From Pseudomonadota bacterium (lineage in GTDB: Bacteria > Pseudomonadota > Gammaproteobacteria > Pseudomonadales > Oleiphilaceae): a stretch of DNA of 64,000 nucleotides. Every line of letters starts with the position of its first letter. The first letter of the stretch is position 1. Made by a program: the position numbers and the translations under genes. The notes under the pieces are model-generated. The model was not told the DNA's origin. It saw only the letters and a program-made list of their open reading frames with translations, and ran no database searches. Shown in pieces: positions 42,858-52,213 of the stretch. The stretch covers positions 60,933 to 124,932 of the forward strand of contig PDPE01000029.1 of the NCBI GenBank assembly GCA_002747395.1, given 5' to 3'.

Positions 42858-44204
42858 CTAGTCGACGCTCAGACCGTGCTTTTTCACAATTTTATAGAAG
42901 TCCGAGCGATTGCGTCCTGCCAGGCGAGCGGCCTCCGGAATATTCCCTCCCGCAATGGTGAGAATACGCAAACAGTAGTCACGCTCGAAGGCTCTTTTTG
43001 CTTCGGTAAGAGATTCTATTTGTGTATCACCTTTGGGTAAATTGAACTCCACCACCTCTTTTGAGACGACTACGGAAGAGGTCAGGGCAACGGCCTGTTC
43101 AACCATATTATTCAACTGGCGAATATTGCCTGGCCATTGATATCCAAGTAACAAATCCATGGCATCGGAAGCGAACCGTTTTTTTTCCTTGCCGGTTCGC
43201 TCGGCAATGCGCTTCAGGAAGTGTTCCACCAGCAGCGGAATATCTTCACAGCGATCTCGCAACGGGGGCAATCCCAGATTCACCACATTCAACCGGTAGT
43301 ACAAGTCCTCACGGAATTGCCCTTCTTCAACCATGCCCTCAAGGTTCCTGTGTGTGGCAGACACAACCCTGACATCAATTGGTTCCGATACCGAGGAGCC
43401 AACCGGCCTGATCTGCCTCTCCTGCAAAACCCGCAGCAACTTTACCTGCAAGTGCAGAGGCATATCCCCTATCTCATCCAAAAACAGCGTACCTCCATTG
43501 GCCGTCGCAAACAAACCGACGTGATCGCTCACCGCACCGGTAAAAGCACCTTTCCGATATCCAAACAGCTCGGCTTCCATAAGCTCCTGGGGAATTGCGC
43601 CACAGTTGACGGCAATAAAAGGCTTTTTCCTGCGTGTACTCACCTGGTGGATCGCTTCGGCAAGCAATTCCTTACCGGTTCCGCTATCTCCGACCACCAG
43701 CACATTCACATCACTGGCCGCCACCAGGCGGGCCTGCTCCAGTACCCGAAACATGGAGGAACTACGGGTAATAATATTTTCGCTCCAATGGCTGTCTGTA
43801 TCTTTTGTCAGGTCGCCGGAAACAGCGCTTTCCAGGGTGGAAATCAGCTCTTCTTTCTGTACGGGTTTGGTAAGAAATGCGAACACTCCCTTTCGGGTAG
43901 CCGCAATCGCATCCGGAATGGAACCGTGGGCGGTCAACATGATGACCGGCAACATGGGCCAGCGCTTCTGAATATTCATCAGTAACGACATCCCATCCAT
44001 TTCATCCATTTTAAGGTCTGTAATGACCACCCTGGGTATTTGCTGATGAATCGCGGCCAAAGCCATCTGACCACTTGTAGCGGTTCGAACCCCGTAGCCC
44101 GATGCTTCGAGGCGCATACTCAACAGCTCCAGCAGGCCGGGGTCGTCATCAACGATCAGCACCTCTTTTGCTCCATAACATGTTTTCCCGGATGCACTAA
44201 CACT
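42858..44204 (-). CDS. glrR: Sigma-54-dependent response regulator (GlrR/QseF-like)
   Basis: Receiver VLIVDDDPGLLELLSMRLEASGYG; AAA+ GDSGTGKELLAEAIHQ, GAFTGAVSDHVG; C-terminal Fis-like AARLAGRNRSDFYKIVKKHGL. Confidence 0.9.
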   Translation of the reverse strand, partial: SVSASGKTCYGAKEVLIVDDDPGLLELLSMRLEASGYGVRTATSGQMALAAIHQQIPRVVITDLKMDEMDGMSLLMNIQKRWPMLPVIMLTAHGSIPDAIAATRKGVFAFLTKPVQKEELISTLESAVSGDLTKDTDSHWSENIITRSSSMFRVLEQARLVAASDVNVLVVGDSGTGKELLAEAIHQVSTRRKKPFIAVNCGAIPQELMEAELFGYRKGAFTGAVSDHVGLFATANGGTLFLDEIGDMPLHLQVKLLRVLQERQIRPVGSSVSEPIDVRVVSATHRNLEGMVEEGQFREDLYYRLNVVNLGLPPLRDRCEDIPLLVEHFLKRIAERTGKEKKRFASDAMDLLLGYQWPGNIRQLNNMVEQAVALTSSVVVSKEVVEFNLPKGDTQIESLTEAKRAFERDYCLRILTIAGGNIPEAARLAGRNRSDFYKIVKKHGLSVD

Positions 44205-44259
44205 CATAAATTTGCTCCTCCGCTGCCCGGCAGCCCTTTCCATGCCAATCCGCCAACCG

Positions 44260-45039
44260 TTACCTGGCATTTATTTCCTTTTCAATTGCCGACAGAGCAT
44301 CAATTTTCCGCTGCAACTCCTGACGAATATTCTCTTTCTCTTTTTTCAACTGTAAAACCCTTTCACCAAAATTGGCCAGCAAATCGAAAACCAATACCGT
44401 ATCGGTATCCAAACGGTTCGATTGAGCCATCTGCGTGTAGTGTTCAATAAAATCTTCAGGTGAATCTGCCACAAAACAACTGCTCACTATCAGCCTCGTC
44501 AACTCCTCGACAGGCAAGAGACGCAATTTGGCAGGTGCCGCTTTCAGTAACCTTTGTACGGTTGACACCGACAGGGTCGATACCTGCCTGCCAGCCTTGT
44601 TTTGTTTTGTTTCCATTCGGCTGTCACCGTCAGTAATACTGTCGCTGCCGGTAATACTATCACTGTTATCAGACCCGCCACTGTTATCAGACCCGCCACT
44701 GTTATCAAACCCGCCACTGTCGTTATCCGGCCTGGTATCAAGAACACGAGGGTTCATAACATGACGACATTCTTCCTCTCTTATAGATAAAATAATCGCC
44801 GCTGACGACGGGATGTTTCTTTTTACAATTTTCAGCTCTTTAATAATAACAGGTTCCTGCTTCTCCGGTATCGGGCACTCCTCCTCTACCACCTGCCCTC
44901 CGCTACGCAGGGCTATCGGCTGACACCCGATCAGGAAGAAAAACAGTAAAGCTGTTCCGGCGTGATAAAGATAATCCCTGTGTGTTGACAAACGAACTCC
45001 AACTCCTGTGCTATTGACTCTGCGATTACTATCTATCAT
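44260..45039 (-). CDS. QseG-like lipoprotein in glr/qse operon
   Basis: LLFFFLIGCQPIALRSG lipobox; lies between kinase and regulator as qseG does; low-complexity GGFDNSGGSDNSGGSDNSDSITGSDSIT insert. Confidence 0.65.
   Translation of the reverse strand: MIDSNRRVNSTGVGVRLSTHRDYLYHAGTALLFFFLIGCQPIALRSGGQVVEEECPIPEKQEPVIIKELKIVKRNIPSSAAIILSIREEECRHVMNPRVLDTRPDNDSGGFDNSGGSDNSGGSDNSDSITGSDSITDGDSRMETKQNKAGRQVSTLSVSTVQRLLKAAPAKLRLLPVEELTRLIVSSCFVADSPEDFIEHYTQMAQSNRLDTDTVLVFDLLANFGERVLQLKKEKENIRQELQRKIDALSAIEKEINAR
44662..44715. repeat. 18-bp in-frame tandem triplication in QseG-like gene
   Basis: ACTGTTATCAGACCCGCC x2 + ACTGTTATCAAACCCGCC. Confidence 0.93.
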
Positions 45040-46709
45040 GACTCACTATCACTGTTTTTTTGTGAAGAACCGGGCAAGGCCAGATCTCCGGGAGCCAGAG
45101 GGTGGTCAAGGTTGCGAGGTAAAAAAACCATAAAGTTCGCGCCTTTTCCCGGCTCACTTTCGACCACTATTCTACCATGTAACGCGTTGACACACTCCCT
45201 GACAATCGACAGCCCGAGACCACTGCCCTTGATCGCCCCTTCGCGCAAGGCTCCCCCCTGATAAAAAGGCTGAAAGATCATATCCTGCTCGGCTTTGGCT
45301 ATACCCGGCCCCTGGTCTTTAACGCTGATACCCACTTCTTTCCGGTTTCCCTGCCAGGCAATGAAAATAGTGCCACCATGTTTGCTGTAGTTAATCGCGT
45401 TGGAGATCAAATTGCTCAACACCATTTCGATACGTGCCGACTCACTCATAATGGCCAGATGGCCGCCTTTACATTCAAAAGTGATCTGCGATGCTTCGGT
45501 CAAATCCTTGACACGCTCGATCTGCCGGTAAACCAGTGTCTGAATATCGAGGTTTGCCGTGATTTCCACCTGTTCTGAACGAACCGTATTGTAGTTCAGC
45601 AACTGCTGAATCTGTTCCAGCAACTTGTCAGCATTACTCGCGAGAATGGTCAGCACCTGTTGCTGTCTGGCATTGATCGGGCCTGGGACCTGATCCGACA
45701 GGAGAGAAGTCGCCTCTATTATCGAAGACAGGGGAGTTTTCAACTCGTGAGTAACATGACGAAGGAAAACGTTTTTTTGCTTCTCAAGCGATAACAAACG
45801 CAATCGCGTCCATTCCAGGCGATCACCCAACAACACCAGATCGCGCGACCCGCCTATTTCAATCGGCTGCTCCAGGTCCCCCTGGCCGAGAGACTTTATC
45901 GACGACCCCAATTGCTTTAACGGGCGTGATATGCGATAGGAAAACAGCAACATCAGTAATCCGGACAAAGGCAGGATCAGGGATCCGATCCACCAGATGT
46001 ACCGCCTCTTCTCTGCATATTCCCTTTCTGTAAGTTTGAGGGAGTCGTCAATAAACTGTTCGGTCAGAGATTCCAGCGTCCATATCTGCTTGTTGACATC
46101 ATCAAATACTGCCTCAAGCTGATTCAGTTGCTGCTCTCTGGCCTCTTCCTCCCGACTTTTTTTCGCTTTTCCATCAGAGTCCGCGATTGCCACCTCCGGA
46201 GGCCCTATTTTCGGGCTGGCTACGACCCTGTACTCAACCGGATCAGCACTGTTTGTCTCGGACCCGGGATATTCGGCGGTCATCGGGCGGTGAATGCTCG
46301 GAAACACCCGGCTGCTATCGATCAGATTGAAAACCATCAATACAGTTTGACTCAATTCAGGTTTACCAATAGCCTTATCCAGTTTGTTCAACCGGCTGCG
46401 AACCATCTGCTCCTTGTTCTGGTACAGCTCTGCAAACCGCACGTCAGCCAATACCACGTATTGTTTGGCAAACCGCTCCAGTTCACGCACTTCCTCAGCC
46501 ACCTTTACCGATAATTGGTTGACAAGAATAACCGTATTGACCAGCCTGTACTGCCCCCGATTCTGCTGCTCGATGGAATGGATGGCATAACCAATGGCGA
46601 CCAGCAAGGGTAACAGGGTCATTATCGCAGCGACAGCCCATTGGTGCATCAACGGTGCACGACTTTGTAAAAATACAGACTCCAGTTTTCCGGCAATTTT
46701 ATCTGACAC
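45036..46709 (-). CDS. glrK: Sensor histidine kinase (GlrK/QseE-like), GTG start
   Basis: Two TMs, HAMP, FLRHVTHELKTPLSSIIEATSLLSDQ, VKDQGPGIAKAEQDMIFQPFYQGG, GSGLGLSIVRECV. Confidence 0.9.
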   Translation of the reverse strand: MSDKIAGKLESVFLQSRAPLMHQWAVAAIMTLLPLLVAIGYAIHSIEQQNRGQYRLVNTVILVNQLSVKVAEEVRELERFAKQYVVLADVRFAELYQNKEQMVRSRLNKLDKAIGKPELSQTVLMVFNLIDSSRVFPSIHRPMTAEYPGSETNSADPVEYRVVASPKIGPPEVAIADSDGKAKKSREEEAREQQLNQLEAVFDDVNKQIWTLESLTEQFIDDSLKLTEREYAEKRRYIWWIGSLILPLSGLLMLLFSYRISRPLKQLGSSIKSLGQGDLEQPIEIGGSRDLVLLGDRLEWTRLRLLSLEKQKNVFLRHVTHELKTPLSSIIEATSLLSDQVPGPINARQQQVLTILASNADKLLEQIQQLLNYNTVRSEQVEITANLDIQTLVYRQIERVKDLTEASQITFECKGGHLAIMSESARIEMVLSNLISNAINYSKHGGTIFIAWQGNRKEVGISVKDQGPGIAKAEQDMIFQPFYQGGALREGAIKGSGLGLSIVRECVNALHGRIVVESEPGKGANFMVFLPRNLDHPLAPGDLALPGSSQKNSDSES

Positions 46710-46744: not shown

Positions 46745-46869
46745 TCACCACCCGTTGCCAATCAGCAACACATTCTGCCGTTGTTGAAACGGCCAGACAC
46801 AGGGTGAATCCCAACCAGTAAACCATCACGAGATGACAAAGCAAGTCATTTTAATCAATTCGCGATAAA

Positions 46870-47025
46870 TCACGATAATTCTTCACCTGTATCCGCTATT
46901 TTGCCCATTTCGACAGGGTAAAACTCCCGGAGGCGAAAACAGCCTGTCAACACATCAAACAGATACACAACAGCCTGTCGCCCTTTTGCAACCAAATAAC
47001 TCTCTGTTTTATATACCTTTTTCAT
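46870..47025 (-). CDS. Possible small hypothetical protein
   Basis: ORF MKKVYKTESYLVAKGRQAVVYLFDVLTGCFRLREFYPVEMGKIADTGEELS; no clear RBS. Confidence 0.25.
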   Translation of the reverse strand: MKKVYKTESYLVAKGRQAVVYLFDVLTGCFRLREFYPVEMGKIADTGEELS

Positions 47026-47282
47026 TATAGGCGAGCTTGCATGTTGCATTTTGCCAACATATTCCGGGTAAAACAACGAGACCCATGCCTGACCAACAGG
47101 CACAAACCAAACCAAAACCTCATAACATATTGATTATAAAGAATTATACTGCTTTCGGCACAGTTCGAGCTTACATACAGACAGAATTTGATTACGGCGA
47201 GAGTGCTTGAATAAGGCTTGAAAAGGAAAGGAAGCTCTGCTGTCGCCGCATACTATCGTAACCGTACACGGAGGTGACAACC

Positions 47283-47429
47283 ATGGTAAACCCGCACAGG
47301 TCAGCTGCAGAGAGTCAGGTCTCGGGTCAGGCATCCATTGAAGGGGGAGACATTCATCATCCCTTCACGATCCTTGCCCTGTTTCTGACCTTTTTGGTTC
47401 TCATCTCGCTACTGGAATATGCTGACTGA
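47283..47429 (+). CDS. Unannotated 48-aa single-TM microprotein
   Basis: MVNPHRSAAESQVSGQASIEGGDIHHPFTILALFLTFLVLISLLEYAD*; ideal RBS CGGAGGTGACAACC-ATG; followed by strong terminator. Below the ORF track cutoff. Confidence 0.75.
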   Translation: MVNPHRSAAESQVSGQASIEGGDIHHPFTILALFLTFLVLISLLEYAD

Positions 47430-47462
47430 CTACCTCCCTATTTAGCAGTGGTTAGCATTTTT

Positions 47463-47502
47463 ACCGCAGTCAGGCATGCCTCGCTCTGACTGCGGTTTTT
47501 TC
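47463..47502 (+). terminator. Strong rho-independent terminator
   Basis: Perfect 11-bp stem ACCGCAGTCAG (47463-47473)/CTGACTGCGGT (47486-47496) followed by TTTTTT. Confidence 0.92.
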
Positions 47503-47578
47503 TGTTTCCACCCCGCCCGGAGGCAGGCGCTTCTTCCGCTCGCGCCTTTCCGGGCAGTAACTGACCTGGACAACCGGC

Positions 47579-50500
47579 CTAATCAACGACAGGCTTTACA
47601 ACAAACAGCAAATCACCTTTGTTAACCTGCTGACCATCCACCCCTTTTACATGAGTAATACGGTATTTGCTTTCCGGGCAATAGAGGTCGCTGCCTGCCT
47701 GGTTAAAGCTCGCCAGGGTTAATGGCTGAAACATTTTCATCACTTCAAGCAGGCATAACGTATGATCTGTAGTGATAATGTCACCCTTTTCAACAAATTC
47801 AGGCTTTCCGGGTGAAGGGCAGCGATACATGATACAGTTGGATGGAGCAAAGACTTTCAGCTCGTCCGACCCCTCCACCCTGATTTCACTTTCCCAGTCC
47901 ACCTTCCGGGCAGGAACTGCACTGGCACCCAGATGGTTGCTCAACTGCGCTTCTGACCTGATTGCCAGTTCAGGCAGATAGGCTGTGTCATAGTCACCAC
48001 TGACAAACACACTGTCTTTCAGTATATAGGAGACCAGCGCAATGTTCGTGCTGATACCCGTCACCTTTACCGATGCCAGATAATCACTCATTTTATCAAT
48101 GGCATCCTGGCGATTCTCACCATGCGCTATAATCTGGGCCACCAGGTTATCATAGTAGGGTGGAACCGGTTTATCACTACCAATGGAAATAATTCCGGAT
48201 ATCCCCTCCCTGTCAGGAAACTCACACACCTCCACCTGACCGGGAGTCGGCTCGACATTCACTTCGGCTTTATGCACTGTAACCCGCTCTGCATTGATCC
48301 TTACCTCCAATGCATAGCCTTTTTCCTCAATGGCAAGGTTTTCAATCGACTCACCTGCGGCTATTTTCAATTGTTGGGCAACAATATTGACTCCGCTTAC
48401 CAGCTCGGTCACGGGATGCTCGACCTGCAGACGCGTATTCATTTCCATAAAGTACAGGTCATTTCGATCCAGATCGAATATAAACTCGACCGTTCCGGCT
48501 CCAACATAGTGGCAGGCATTCGCCATATTGATGGCACATTCCTTCGCCTGAATTTCTTTTTCCGGAGGCAGCAGGGTTGACCCGGACTCTTCGATAATTT
48601 TTTGTTTATTGCGCTGAATACTGCAGTCTCGAATACCAAGGGCAAAACAATGGCCAAACCGGTCTCTGAGTAACTGAACTTCAATATGACGAAAACGGGT
48701 AACAAAGCGTTCCAGATAAATATCATCCCGACCAAAGCTGCTTCGGGCCTCTGCCTTGATGGTCAGGAACTTGGCCACCAGAGAGCTTTCATCCTCAACA
48801 ACCACAATTCCCTTGCCACCGCCCCCATGCGCCGCTTTCAAAATAACCGGAAAGCCGGTCTCCCGAGCTGCCTGCAACGCATGATGCTCATCAACAAGCA
48901 CACCATGACTCCCCGGAACAACAGGCACCCCCATACTCATAGCGGTTTTGATCGCCTGGGACTTGTCCCCCATCATCTCCATGCTTTGGGGGCTCGGGCC
49001 GATAAAGTTCACCCCCTGGAGCAGGCATTGCCTTGCAAATGACGGATTTTCCGACAAAAAACCTATCCCGGGGTGAAGTGCCCGCACGTTCTGCAAATTG
49101 GCAATGCGCAACACACTGTCACCATTCAAATAGCTTTCATCCGAGGTGTAGCCACCGAGACAAATCAGTTCATCGGCTTCACCAAGTCTGTCTGCAGCCA
49201 CCGAGTCCATATCCGGGTCAGACTGTACCAATACCACCTTCAAGCCTGCTTTCTGCACCTGGTCTATCAGTTTTACTGCCGTGCATCCCCTGGCATGAAC
49301 CAACACCTTGTCAAACGGCTCGAAAATCTGATCCACCTCATCAACGGGCTGCTCATCCGGGTGACTCTCCAACGGATGGGTGCCGATCAACCAGTGGTCG
49401 ATCACTTCGTTAACTCCCCGGGCAGCCAGAATGATATCACTGTCAACGGCAGCCAGCTTGGAGTCCAGATCAGGAATAAAGGGATGGCGAACCAGCCCCT
49501 GCATACTCCCTTCCCGTTTCACCAGATAGTTTGACAGGGTGGAAGTAACGGGCAAGAAATCCGGCACGACAATCCGTCCGGCAAATGGCATATTGGTACC
49601 GGAGAAATACCAGGTTTGCACCAGTGGGTGCGTCACCAGGCTGGCTTGTGCTCCCCCTGTGCAATCACCGTAGCCGAAAAATAAAACAGATTGGCCGACT
49701 TCGGCAACAAACCGGTTGATTTGTTCGTTCACCACCGCCATTGAAAACAGCGAAGCCGCACCTTCTTTGGTTTGCATTCCGGCCGAGCACAGAAAACCGA
49801 CCACGGGCAAATGATGCTTGGCACAATGGGTCAGCAAACGACAAAACCGCTCTGCGCTGGACATATCAAAGGCACCGGCCTGAAACGCATGATTGGAGAC
49901 GACAACCCCTACTTCCTGAAAGGAGGAGTGAGCGGCTTTTTCAGGGGAATCATCCGCCGCTTTCGCACCGGCTGCCAGCGCTTTTCCAGGGAAGTACCTG
50001 GCTACTCCGGTAATAATCCCGGAAGCCGGCCTTCCCTTTTTCGCCTGTTTCGCTATGGCAAGATCAAACCCCGGAAAAGAGCAAGGGTTGGAAGTAGTAA
50101 GCTCTGCATCAAACTCAATAAAGTCCTGAAAAAAACGCCCGATCAAATCCAGGGGCTTGAGACTTCCGGTCGGCTTGACATCATTTAATACCGCCTGAAT
50201 GCGCAGGTCTTTCTCGGCTTCAACCAGGCGGTTCCAGAAATCCTTGCGCCGACCTATCGACACCGGGGTAAACTGACCACCGAAGTTTTTATTCTCTTGT
50301 ATGGAAGTAAAGTAGTCGGGGAACAACCGATCAAAAAAGTAACTGACGACGACAAACAGGACTTCAGACATGCGAGGGTGCTGGGTTCGCTTCCATTGCT
50401 CGGCAAACTGCATATACCGGCTCAGATTTCCGGTTTGTTTCACCTGATTCAGCCAGATCAAAAAATCCTGGCGAACATCGCCAGAAATATCGGCAAAGCC

Positions 50501-52213
50501 GAGAAGGGATTCGATCAGATTGGCAGACACCCGCTGGTTTTCTGCCAGTTCCGTCACGATATCTGTCATATGATCCAGAATGACATCGTAGAGCCCGTCA
50601 AGGCGAATAAGATGCTGTGCGCAAGTAATGATAAAGCCGGAAAACAGCTCATCCCGGATCACATCCAGCAAGGTCAGACAATCTTCCGCAAACTGATTGG
50701 CCGAACAATCAGGCTCGTGTTTTTCAAGGTAATCCACCAGGCTGCGCAAATGATGAACCGCATCATTTTGCCATCGGTTATAAAGGTAGAAGCAGACTTC
50801 AAAACACAGTTCCCGGTAGGCTTTTTCGTACTCATCTTCCGGATCTCCAAGAAACAGCGCCGCCACATAGCTCCGCTTTTCTCCCCTATGTTCCTGTGAT
50901 TCCTGAAAACGCTTCCATACCTTTAACAGGGTGTCTTCATAGACAATGCGCTCTTTGGCTTCGAGCCACAGGGCAAAACGCTCCGCCAGAATGGCATTGA
51001 TAACCTCTTCTTCTTCCTTGTCCGCTTCCTGGTTCATCGGACTCTCGGACACTTTTTGAGTCGACAGCTGGCCGACGGTGGAGGTTCTCAACCTTCCCCG
51101 CAGAACAATAGAGCGCTGCAGCTTCAGGCCGTATTCAATCACTGACGGATAATTTTCCGGGCTATACTGGTACAGGATATTGGTCGGCCCCGTATCACGA
51201 CAATAACCAAGGCTGGCCTCCAGATAGGCAAATCCCGCTTTTTCTATTTTGTCAATAGTATGCTGGGCCGCATTGATTGACCATTCGATCGACTCCAGTA
51301 TGGCCTGTATCAGGTTTTCCATACAGGTGGAACCATCTTCCGGTGAATAATCCACCACCGAATCAATGACGCCTTCCCTGCATAATTCGGCCGCAGAGAC
51401 ACCTACCTTTTGAGCGCACGCGAACCAGGAAAGACGCTGCTTTCTGGCGATGGCGGCCAATCCCCTGGGCTGGATAGTGTTGAATAACGCATCTTTAACG
51501 GACAACAAAACGTTCCCCGAAGCCAGTGGAATCGCCCCGCCAGAGTACCCGACACCCAGTACCACTCCCACTACAGGTACAGTAAGGTCAGCAATCTCGG
51601 CAATGAGACGGGATATGGAGTGGGCCTGGTTTTCCGCGTTGGCCTTTTCCCCGGCATCCGCTCCGGGTGTATCCATAAAGGTGACAATGGGAAGTCCAAG
51701 CTGCTCCATTTCGCGAACCCACTCACAGGCAATCGTGTGATGCTCCGCTCCCCATGAACCATTGTCCACTTTCCGGTTTTGCCCCATGAAGGCGACCTTT
51801 CTGGGCCCGTCCGGGCCAGACATTTCCCCCCGCGCCAGATACAATGCACCGTGTTTTCGCTCATCAAACACTTTTTCGCACACCTGCCTGATAACCCGGG
51901 GAGCAGGCCAGCGGTCAGGACTTTCAACCGGAGTGATCACTATGTCCCGATACTGATCGCCGGTCAGACTTTTCAGTTGACGAACCCTGGCATCAACCTG
52001 TTCTGTTCTCCAGAAACACGAACTCTGACTGCCAAACCGGAAACCGGCCCCATCAGCGTAATAACCCGGCCCCAATGAACGCTTCGGAGAACCTTCCGGC
52101 AATTCCTCGACCGGCTCGGGTAAGGGTTTATTGGCCAGACCCAAAACGACTTTTTCCAGTTCCGCAAATAAGCTCCTGGCGGCGAACCTTTCATTTTTAT
52201 CAGATTTCTGCAT
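47579..52213 (-). CDS. Single-chain biotin-dependent acyl-CoA carboxylase-like protein: carboxyltransferase (two crotonase-like halves) - biotin carboxylase - biotinyl domain
   Basis: N-terminal AccA-like MDTPGADAGEKANAENQAHSISRLI; second CT-like SAGMQTKEGAASLFSMAVVNEQINRF; BC KAAHGGGGKGIVVVED, MNTRLQVEHPVTELVSGVN; C-terminal LCLLEVMKMFQP biotinylation motif. Confidence 0.9.
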   Translation of the reverse strand: MQKSDKNERFAARSLFAELEKVVLGLANKPLPEPVEELPEGSPKRSLGPGYYADGAGFRFGSQSSCFWRTEQVDARVRQLKSLTGDQYRDIVITPVESPDRWPAPRVIRQVCEKVFDERKHGALYLARGEMSGPDGPRKVAFMGQNRKVDNGSWGAEHHTIACEWVREMEQLGLPIVTFMDTPGADAGEKANAENQAHSISRLIAEIADLTVPVVGVVLGVGYSGGAIPLASGNVLLSVKDALFNTIQPRGLAAIARKQRLSWFACAQKVGVSAAELCREGVIDSVVDYSPEDGSTCMENLIQAILESIEWSINAAQHTIDKIEKAGFAYLEASLGYCRDTGPTNILYQYSPENYPSVIEYGLKLQRSIVLRGRLRTSTVGQLSTQKVSESPMNQEADKEEEEVINAILAERFALWLEAKERIVYEDTLLKVWKRFQESQEHRGEKRSYVAALFLGDPEDEYEKAYRELCFEVCFYLYNRWQNDAVHHLRSLVDYLEKHEPDCSANQFAEDCLTLLDVIRDELFSGFIITCAQHLIRLDGLYDVILDHMTDIVTELAENQRVSANLIESLLGFADISGDVRQDFLIWLNQVKQTGNLSRYMQFAEQWKRTQHPRMSEVLFVVVSYFFDRLFPDYFTSIQENKNFGGQFTPVSIGRRKDFWNRLVEAEKDLRIQAVLNDVKPTGSLKPLDLIGRFFQDFIEFDAELTTSNPCSFPGFDLAIAKQAKKGRPASGIITGVARYFPGKALAAGAKAADDSPEKAAHSSFQEVGVVVSNHAFQAGAFDMSSAERFCRLLTHCAKHHLPVVGFLCSAGMQTKEGAASLFSMAVVNEQINRFVAEVGQSVLFFGYGDCTGGAQASLVTHPLVQTWYFSGTNMPFAGRIVVPDFLPVTSTLSNYLVKREGSMQGLVRHPFIPDLDSKLAAVDSDIILAARGVNEVIDHWLIGTHPLESHPDEQPVDEVDQIFEPFDKVLVHARGCTAVKLIDQVQKAGLKVVLVQSDPDMDSVAADRLGEADELICLGGYTSDESYLNGDSVLRIANLQNVRALHPGIGFLSENPSFARQCLLQGVNFIGPSPQSMEMMGDKSQAIKTAMSMGVPVVPGSHGVLVDEHHALQAARETGFPVILKAAHGGGGKGIVVVEDESSLVAKFLTIKAEARSSFGRDDIYLERFVTRFRHIEVQLLRDRFGHCFALGIRDCSIQRNKQKIIEESGSTLLPPEKEIQAKECAINMANACHYVGAGTVEFIFDLDRNDLYFMEMNTRLQVEHPVTELVSGVNIVAQQLKIAAGESIENLAIEEKGYALEVRINAERVTVHKAEVNVEPTPGQVEVCEFPDREGISGIISIGSDKPVPPYYDNLVAQIIAHGENRQDAIDKMSDYLASVKVTGISTNIALVSYILKDSVFVSGDYDTAYLPELAIRSEAQLSNHLGASAVPARKVDWESEIRVEGSDELKVFAPSNCIMYRCPSPGKPEFVEKGDIITTDHTLCLLEVMKMFQPLTLASFNQAGSDLYCPESKYRITHVKGVDGQQVNKGDLLFVVKPVVD

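Follow-up and report, generated by a model that had tools for sequence, protein, structure and literature searches.

A membrane microprotein gene with putative GlrR/sigma-54 control elements, divergent from glrK, in a member of the Oleiphilaceae

In the 64,000-nucleotide stretch of DNA analyzed here (the window), we found a short and almost certainly genuine protein-coding gene that is divergent from the sensor kinase gene glrK and specifies a 48-aa predicted membrane microprotein. GlrR-type enhancers and a putative sigma-54 element, which the original prediction had missed, lie between glrK and the ORF, and judging from these elements the gene is very probably under GlrR/sigma-54 control. On balance, we regard it as specifying a monocistronic mRNA and as belonging to the GlrK-(QseG)-GlrR envelope-stress regulon, with a product that may tune GlrKR output. 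Our search of the open-access literature found no description of such a GlrR/sigma-54 microprotein unit.

Results

The ORF (47283 to 47429, plus strand) runs from ATG to TGA, and its translation matches the 48-aa peptide originally quoted exactly. It is preceded by a Shine-Dalgarno (SD) sequence, GGAGGTGA (47270 to 47277, plus strand), read from the sequence; its presence agrees with what had been proposed, but not the proposed 6-nt spacing, which we measured as 5 nt from the end of the SD to the ATG (8 nt from GGAGG). Hydropathy analysis gave a single hydrophobic stretch at residues 28 to 44 (KD mean, 2.81; codons at 47364 to 47414, plus strand), and AlphaFold predicted a helix at residues 26 to 47 with pLDDT values of >90, in keeping with the one transmembrane (TM) helix of the original prediction. 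The peptide, which matched no Pfam family at an E value of 0.001, is probably an inner membrane protein with an N-in/C-out topology.

Both the peptide homology search and the Ka/Ks comparison suggested at the outset were run. Among 58 related genomes and the GTDB contigs, there was one clear homolog (L003), and the contigs contained no other; it comes from a MAG, the sole other member of the genus searched, occupies the same genomic place, and is 70% identical. Its SD, GAGGTGACAACC, is identical to that of the window, and its start is shifted by one codon, to GTG. The microprotein frame alone is open in both genomes, the other five frames containing stops in each. Since the same frame, SD, hairpin, and neighbors recur in L003 while the other five frames are stopped in both genomes, the ORF is more than a product of chance. 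The dN/dS ratio of the frame between the window and L003 is about 0.38, with a dN of 0.04 against a dS of 0.41 in the C-terminal half, and the neighboring genes have dS values of 1.3 to 1.7. Loss of the reading frame in relatives had been named beforehand as the observation that would speak against the gene; the frame is kept in L003 and, remotely, in a third genome.

This third homolog belongs to a 6.4-Mb genome from another genus of the family (G010), where it was located by its position upstream of glrK. It is 77 aa long, has an HP-x3-L-x-LFL core, resembles the others only around the helix, and is followed by a terminator of the same type. It scored an E value of 2.4e-20 with a profile that includes the G010 sequence itself and consists of three sequences (window, L003, and G010), two of them close. 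The same profile detected nothing else credible among 163 genomes of the family, where matches above an E value of 0.002 lay inside long ORFs or were short fragments, and the 48-aa query retrieved no further homologs from 392 genomes of the order. GlrK itself is present in only 10 of the 163 family genomes; the microprotein occurs in 3 of these 10 and, at any credible E value, in none of the 153 without GlrK. All three microprotein genes adjoin glrK in divergent orientation, and the same hairpin closes each unit.

The product of the neighboring glrK-like sensor kinase gene (45036 to 46709, minus strand) aligns with E. coli GlrK at 36% identity across 305 aa (1e-58) and contains HAMP, HisKA, and HATPase domains. 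For the sigma-54 activator gene glrR (42858 to 44270, minus strand), the best NCBIfam model is GlrR, with 612 bits against a cut-off of 763; the product is 56% identical to E. coli GlrR, and the recognition helices of the two (AARLAGRNRSDFYK in the window versus AARMAGRNRTEFYK in E. coli) are nearly identical, with AARxAGRNRxxFYK in common. By position, a lipoprotein-like gene (44260 to 45039, minus strand) takes the place of qseG, with no detectable similarity of its product to E. coli QseG and no Pfam match. This product has a hydrophobic leader ending in LIGCQPIALRSGG, which gives it the look of a lipoprotein, and a DNSGGSDNSGGSDNS repeat that is missing from L003. On the other side, a carboxylase gene (47579 to 52213, minus strand) is convergent with the microprotein unit, which is, as had been predicted, the sole plus-strand unit between two minus-strand genes, glrK and the carboxylase gene. 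The product is a 1,544-aa biotin-dependent carboxylase in which an ACCA-like carboxyltransferase part is fused to biotin carboxylase and biotin-carrier-like parts; its gene is kept in L003 and is not beside glrK in G010.

In E. coli, GlrR (QseF) acts at sigma-54 promoters to drive glmY and rpoE (PMC8745638, PMC6075780), and its binding site has been given as TGTC-N10-GACA (PMC8745638) or, alternatively, as TGTN12ACA (PMC6075780). Three GlrR-type enhancers in the window, to which no strand was assigned, each match TGTYGC-N6-GCRACA at 11 of 12 positions: UAS3, near the glrK start (CGTTGCCAATCAGCAACA, 46753 to 46770; equivalent at 4418 in L003, TGTTGCCAATTCGCAACC), UAS2 (TGTCGCCCTTTTGCAACC, 46976 to 46993; equivalent at 4641 in L003, TGTCGCCGTATTGCAACA), and UAS1 (TGTTGCATTTTGCCAACA, 47042 to 47059; equivalents at 4707 in L003 and at 4482 in L013, from G010). 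These are the three best positions for this consensus in the 64-kb window, and all of them fall between glrK and the ORF. UAS2 and UAS1 are 66 bp apart in both the window and L003; the glmY sites in the E. coli record, TGTCGC-N6-GCGACA and TGTCGC-N6-GAGACA, are 63 bp apart. The consensus was widened (Y/R) only after the sites had been seen, and we also ran the strict E. coli-only form, which placed 3 of its 12 best window positions in the 0.4-kb gap between glrK and the ORF. When up to one mismatch is allowed, UAS2 and UAS1 are the only two sites in the 3.36-Mb assembly within 100 bp of each other. None of 15 other near-consensus GlrR sites of the genome that were examined had a second site within 500 bp, and only one of them (L059) had a sigma-54 match of >11 bits within 200 bp. 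A perfect TGTYGC-N6-GCRACA match occurs just once in the genome (G000:C1:26716-26733), and this site stands alone, without a recognizable sigma-54 promoter nearby.

About 100 bp downstream of UAS1 lies the putative sigma-54 promoter, CGGCACAGTTCGAGCT (47156 to 47171, plus strand), of the form GG-N10-GC. By PWM alone it is weak, ranking 34th in the window with 9.5 bits; its position is conserved: it aligns with TGGCACAATTCAGGCT in L003 and with TGGCACGACGAATGCT in L013 of G010, the latter scoring 16.3 bits. From sigma-54 geometry, transcription would start at 47183 to 47184 (plus strand), some 12 nt past the -12 GC; the 5' part of the RNA so deduced is not conserved between the window and L003 (68%, with 59 gap columns). 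The same UAS-UAS-sigma-54 geometry is found at E. coli glmY and beside glrK in other families.

Divergent units with the same enhancer pair, a sigma-54-like element, and the same place opposite glrK occur in other glrK-bearing gammaproteobacteria (L018 to L024, L029, and L030 to L037), with different payloads. In L029, L034, and L037, two GlrR sites 65 to 68 bp apart are followed 83 to 93 bp on by a TGGCAC-type element, and the layouts in L030 to L032 and L035 are comparable; these units encode a secreted EF-hand protein, in many cases with an outer-membrane-barrel-like gene behind it (names assigned by reading the sequences). Other genomes from the family of the window have in this place either a cluster of EF-hand, BON, and OmpA-like genes or a short ORF that is unrelated, and their sigma-54 elements are less canonical. 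The short ORF, found in the same slot in L018 and L019 near position 540 of the final 1,700 bases when read outward from glrK, encodes an N-terminal hydrophobic helix and is accompanied by GG-N10-GA instead of GG-N10-GC; we considered these two ORFs as homologs of the microprotein gene and rejected them, as the profile does not find them. The shared architecture with other payloads implies a conserved control point with a variable payload, which in the lineage of the window is the microprotein.

At the 3' end, an intrinsic terminator (47463 to 47501, plus strand), recognized by sequence, fold, and conservation, consists of an 11-bp stem, a 12-nt loop with TGCCTCGC, and a T-run. Its arms, ACCGCAGTCAG (47463 to 47473) and CTGACTGCGGT (47486 to 47496), form 11 perfect pairs; arm 1 begins 34 nt past the stop codon, and the T6 tract (47496 to 47501), present on the plus strand only, shares its first T with the last base of the stem, so that the hairpin is as originally described. 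Its predicted folding energy of -23.1 kcal/mol is significant (z, -4.65). The hairpin is a single copy in the genome, which rules out an origin as a repeat element, and because the next gene downstream in G010 is codirectional with the microprotein unit, the terminator can be assigned to that unit. With frame, SD, hairpin, and neighbors kept in L003, the claim that the membrane microprotein gene forms a separate transcript unit with a dedicated terminator is thus supported at the sequence level.

Around and within this 3' end, constraint seems to extend beyond the codons, according to two close genomes and, in part, G010. No 51-nt windows in the 9.8 kb aligned with L003 are better conserved than those in the 3' untranslated region plus terminator (47445 to 47503), which surpass any coding sequence; the longest stretch of identity, 45 nt at 47451 to 47495, is equaled in no coding sequence. 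G010 retains GTTAGYAT, the terminator stem with one compensatory change (T-A to C-G), and the TGCCTCGC loop core. A hairpin over the stop codon with a CCTCC-containing loop (47425 to 47455, plus strand) can form by pairing of CTGAC (47425 to 47429) with GTTAG (47451 to 47455), and each of the three genomes allows this 5-bp stem, with one G-U/A-U exchange. Of the third codon positions in the C-terminal half, 19 of 24 are identical in L003, a level reached by 1% of neighbor windows. Besides, an in-ORF arm, GGTTCTCATCTC (47396 to 47407, plus strand), is tentatively predicted to pair with the SD region (47271 to 47282) at 11 of 12 positions, with a predicted pair probability of about 0.99 over the SD in both the window and L003 and a P value of about 0.02 against synonymous recoding; this pairing is not kept in G010.

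Discussion

The conserved frame, the enhancer/promoter architecture, and the terminator are features of the DNA itself; we infer from there the actual GlrR control, translation, topology, and target. According to the explanation that we favor, GlrK-P would phosphorylate GlrR, and GlrR-P would bind the TGTYGC-N6-GCRACA sites in the intergenic region that glrK and the microprotein gene share, activating sigma-54 polymerase at 47156 to 47171. A short transcript of about 320 nt, ending at the hairpin at 47463 to 47501, would be translated into the 48-aa single-helix inner membrane protein, which would then most likely act on the envelope signaling responsible for its induction, through contact with GlrK or a neighbor in the membrane, so that GlrKR output is tuned. 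MgrB and SafA are small membrane regulators of the sensor kinase PhoQ (PMC11539335), and like them, the microprotein is short with a single TM helix; it further resembles MgrB in its apparent control by the response regulator of the system on which it may act. The likeness to MgrB is one of logic only, as the microprotein has no sequence or Pfam relation to MgrB or SafA, and its gene has a putative sigma-54 promoter and is divergent from the kinase gene. By this analogy, feedback on GlrK is conceivable, if still tentative, and a role as some other envelope effector has a nearly even chance of being correct; the fact that the same promoter drives unrelated genes elsewhere is equally compatible with a general envelope effector and with a kinase regulator.

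The conserved 3' end may allow a second, RNA-level role of the transcript. SgrS/SgrT and SR1/SR1P combine a short transcript, a small ORF, and a strong terminator with nucleotide-level conservation outside the ORF, and the predicted microprotein transcript has the same build, with a candidate RNA function. In such a dual-function RNA, the 3' end of the microprotein mRNA would regulate in trans or act on its own ribosome-binding site, the module comprising the stop-codon hairpin and the terminator with exposed CCUCC and UGCCUCGC loops. We consider this possible but somewhat unlikely. It would account for the exceptional conservation of 47445 to 47503 and the 45-nt identical run, the matching third codon positions next to genes with a dS of 1.3 to 1.7, the loop and GTTAGYAT kept in G010, and the predicted pairing of the SD; on the other hand, terminators are constrained anyway, the comparison comprises three sequences only, there is no Rfam match, the SD pairing is lost in G010, and a scan of the window for the complement of the TGCCTCGC loop, as a cis target, found only its own opposite strand. 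The more elaborate version, a bifunctional transcript in the GlmY slot that joins a GlrK-feedback microprotein to a conserved 3' RNA module regulating mRNAs through its C-rich loops, seems rather improbable; if true, one envelope-stress response would draw both its protein arm and its RNA arm from a single short gene. The size, the single helix, and the predicted SD sequestration would also suit a type I toxin-like peptide: the full-length mRNA would mask its SD, envelope stress would induce it, and an antisense RNA would repress it. A weak promoter-like site (47280 to 47252) and a terminator-like site (47108 to 47080) are present on the minus strand, but the counts of such promoters and terminators are near chance and the 5' untranslated region with which the antisense RNA would pair is not conserved, and we think such a toxin quite improbable.

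A chance ORF in front of the terminator of the convergent carboxylase gene is scarcely credible. The hairpin does lie about 80 nt beyond the carboxylase stop, but its T-run is on the plus strand only, and we rejected this reading on account of the constrained codons, the stops in the other frames, and the arrangement in G010, where the ORF and hairpin remain without a carboxylase gene. The hint of a link to GlmY held for the regulatory logic, namely, GlrR-type sites and a putative sigma-54 promoter, and failed for identity. A true GlmY counterpart would be a noncoding, GlrR-driven sRNA acting via RapZ/GlmZ on glmS, with the ORF incidental. In favor of it, the regulator type and promoter logic are the same, the unit is beside glrK, and rapZ is present; as in the E. 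coli glmY-glrK-qseG-glrR (QseE/QseG/QseF) locus, a lipoprotein-like gene separates glrR and glrK, whose order is the same, GlrR sites about 65 bp apart lie upstream of a sigma-54 promoter (putative here), and a small transcript (predicted here) adjoins glrK. In contrast to E. coli, where glmY is codirectional with glrK, the unit here is divergent and encodes a conserved protein with its frame under purifying selection, and the deduced 5' part of the RNA is not conserved. Furthermore, GlmY (RF00128) had no match in the locus even at an E value of 5, whereas the E. coli positive control scored 146 bits, and no full-length glmS (TIGR01135) was found in either genome of the genus, both incomplete (G000, 93%; G001, 74%). 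The GlmY reading is thus largely refuted, and we rate it as very improbable. As a separate observation, the family member G010 has full-length glmS, and the lack of a full-length match in G000 and G001 may reflect glucosamine auxotrophy or assembly gaps.

Returning to the GlrR-regulated membrane microprotein, the GlrR/sigma-54 control point beside glrK, which serves as the GlmY promoter in enterics, appears to be wider than GlmY, with a lineage-dependent payload of microprotein, EF-hand, or BON/OmpA-like proteins. This opens a direct test of the purpose of the poorly understood GlrKR system outside enterics, and it would add a small membrane protein for which a promoter, a regulator, and a candidate partner can be named. 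The EF-hand units beside glrK in L029, L034, and L037 probably represent a conserved GlrR envelope regulon outside enterics.
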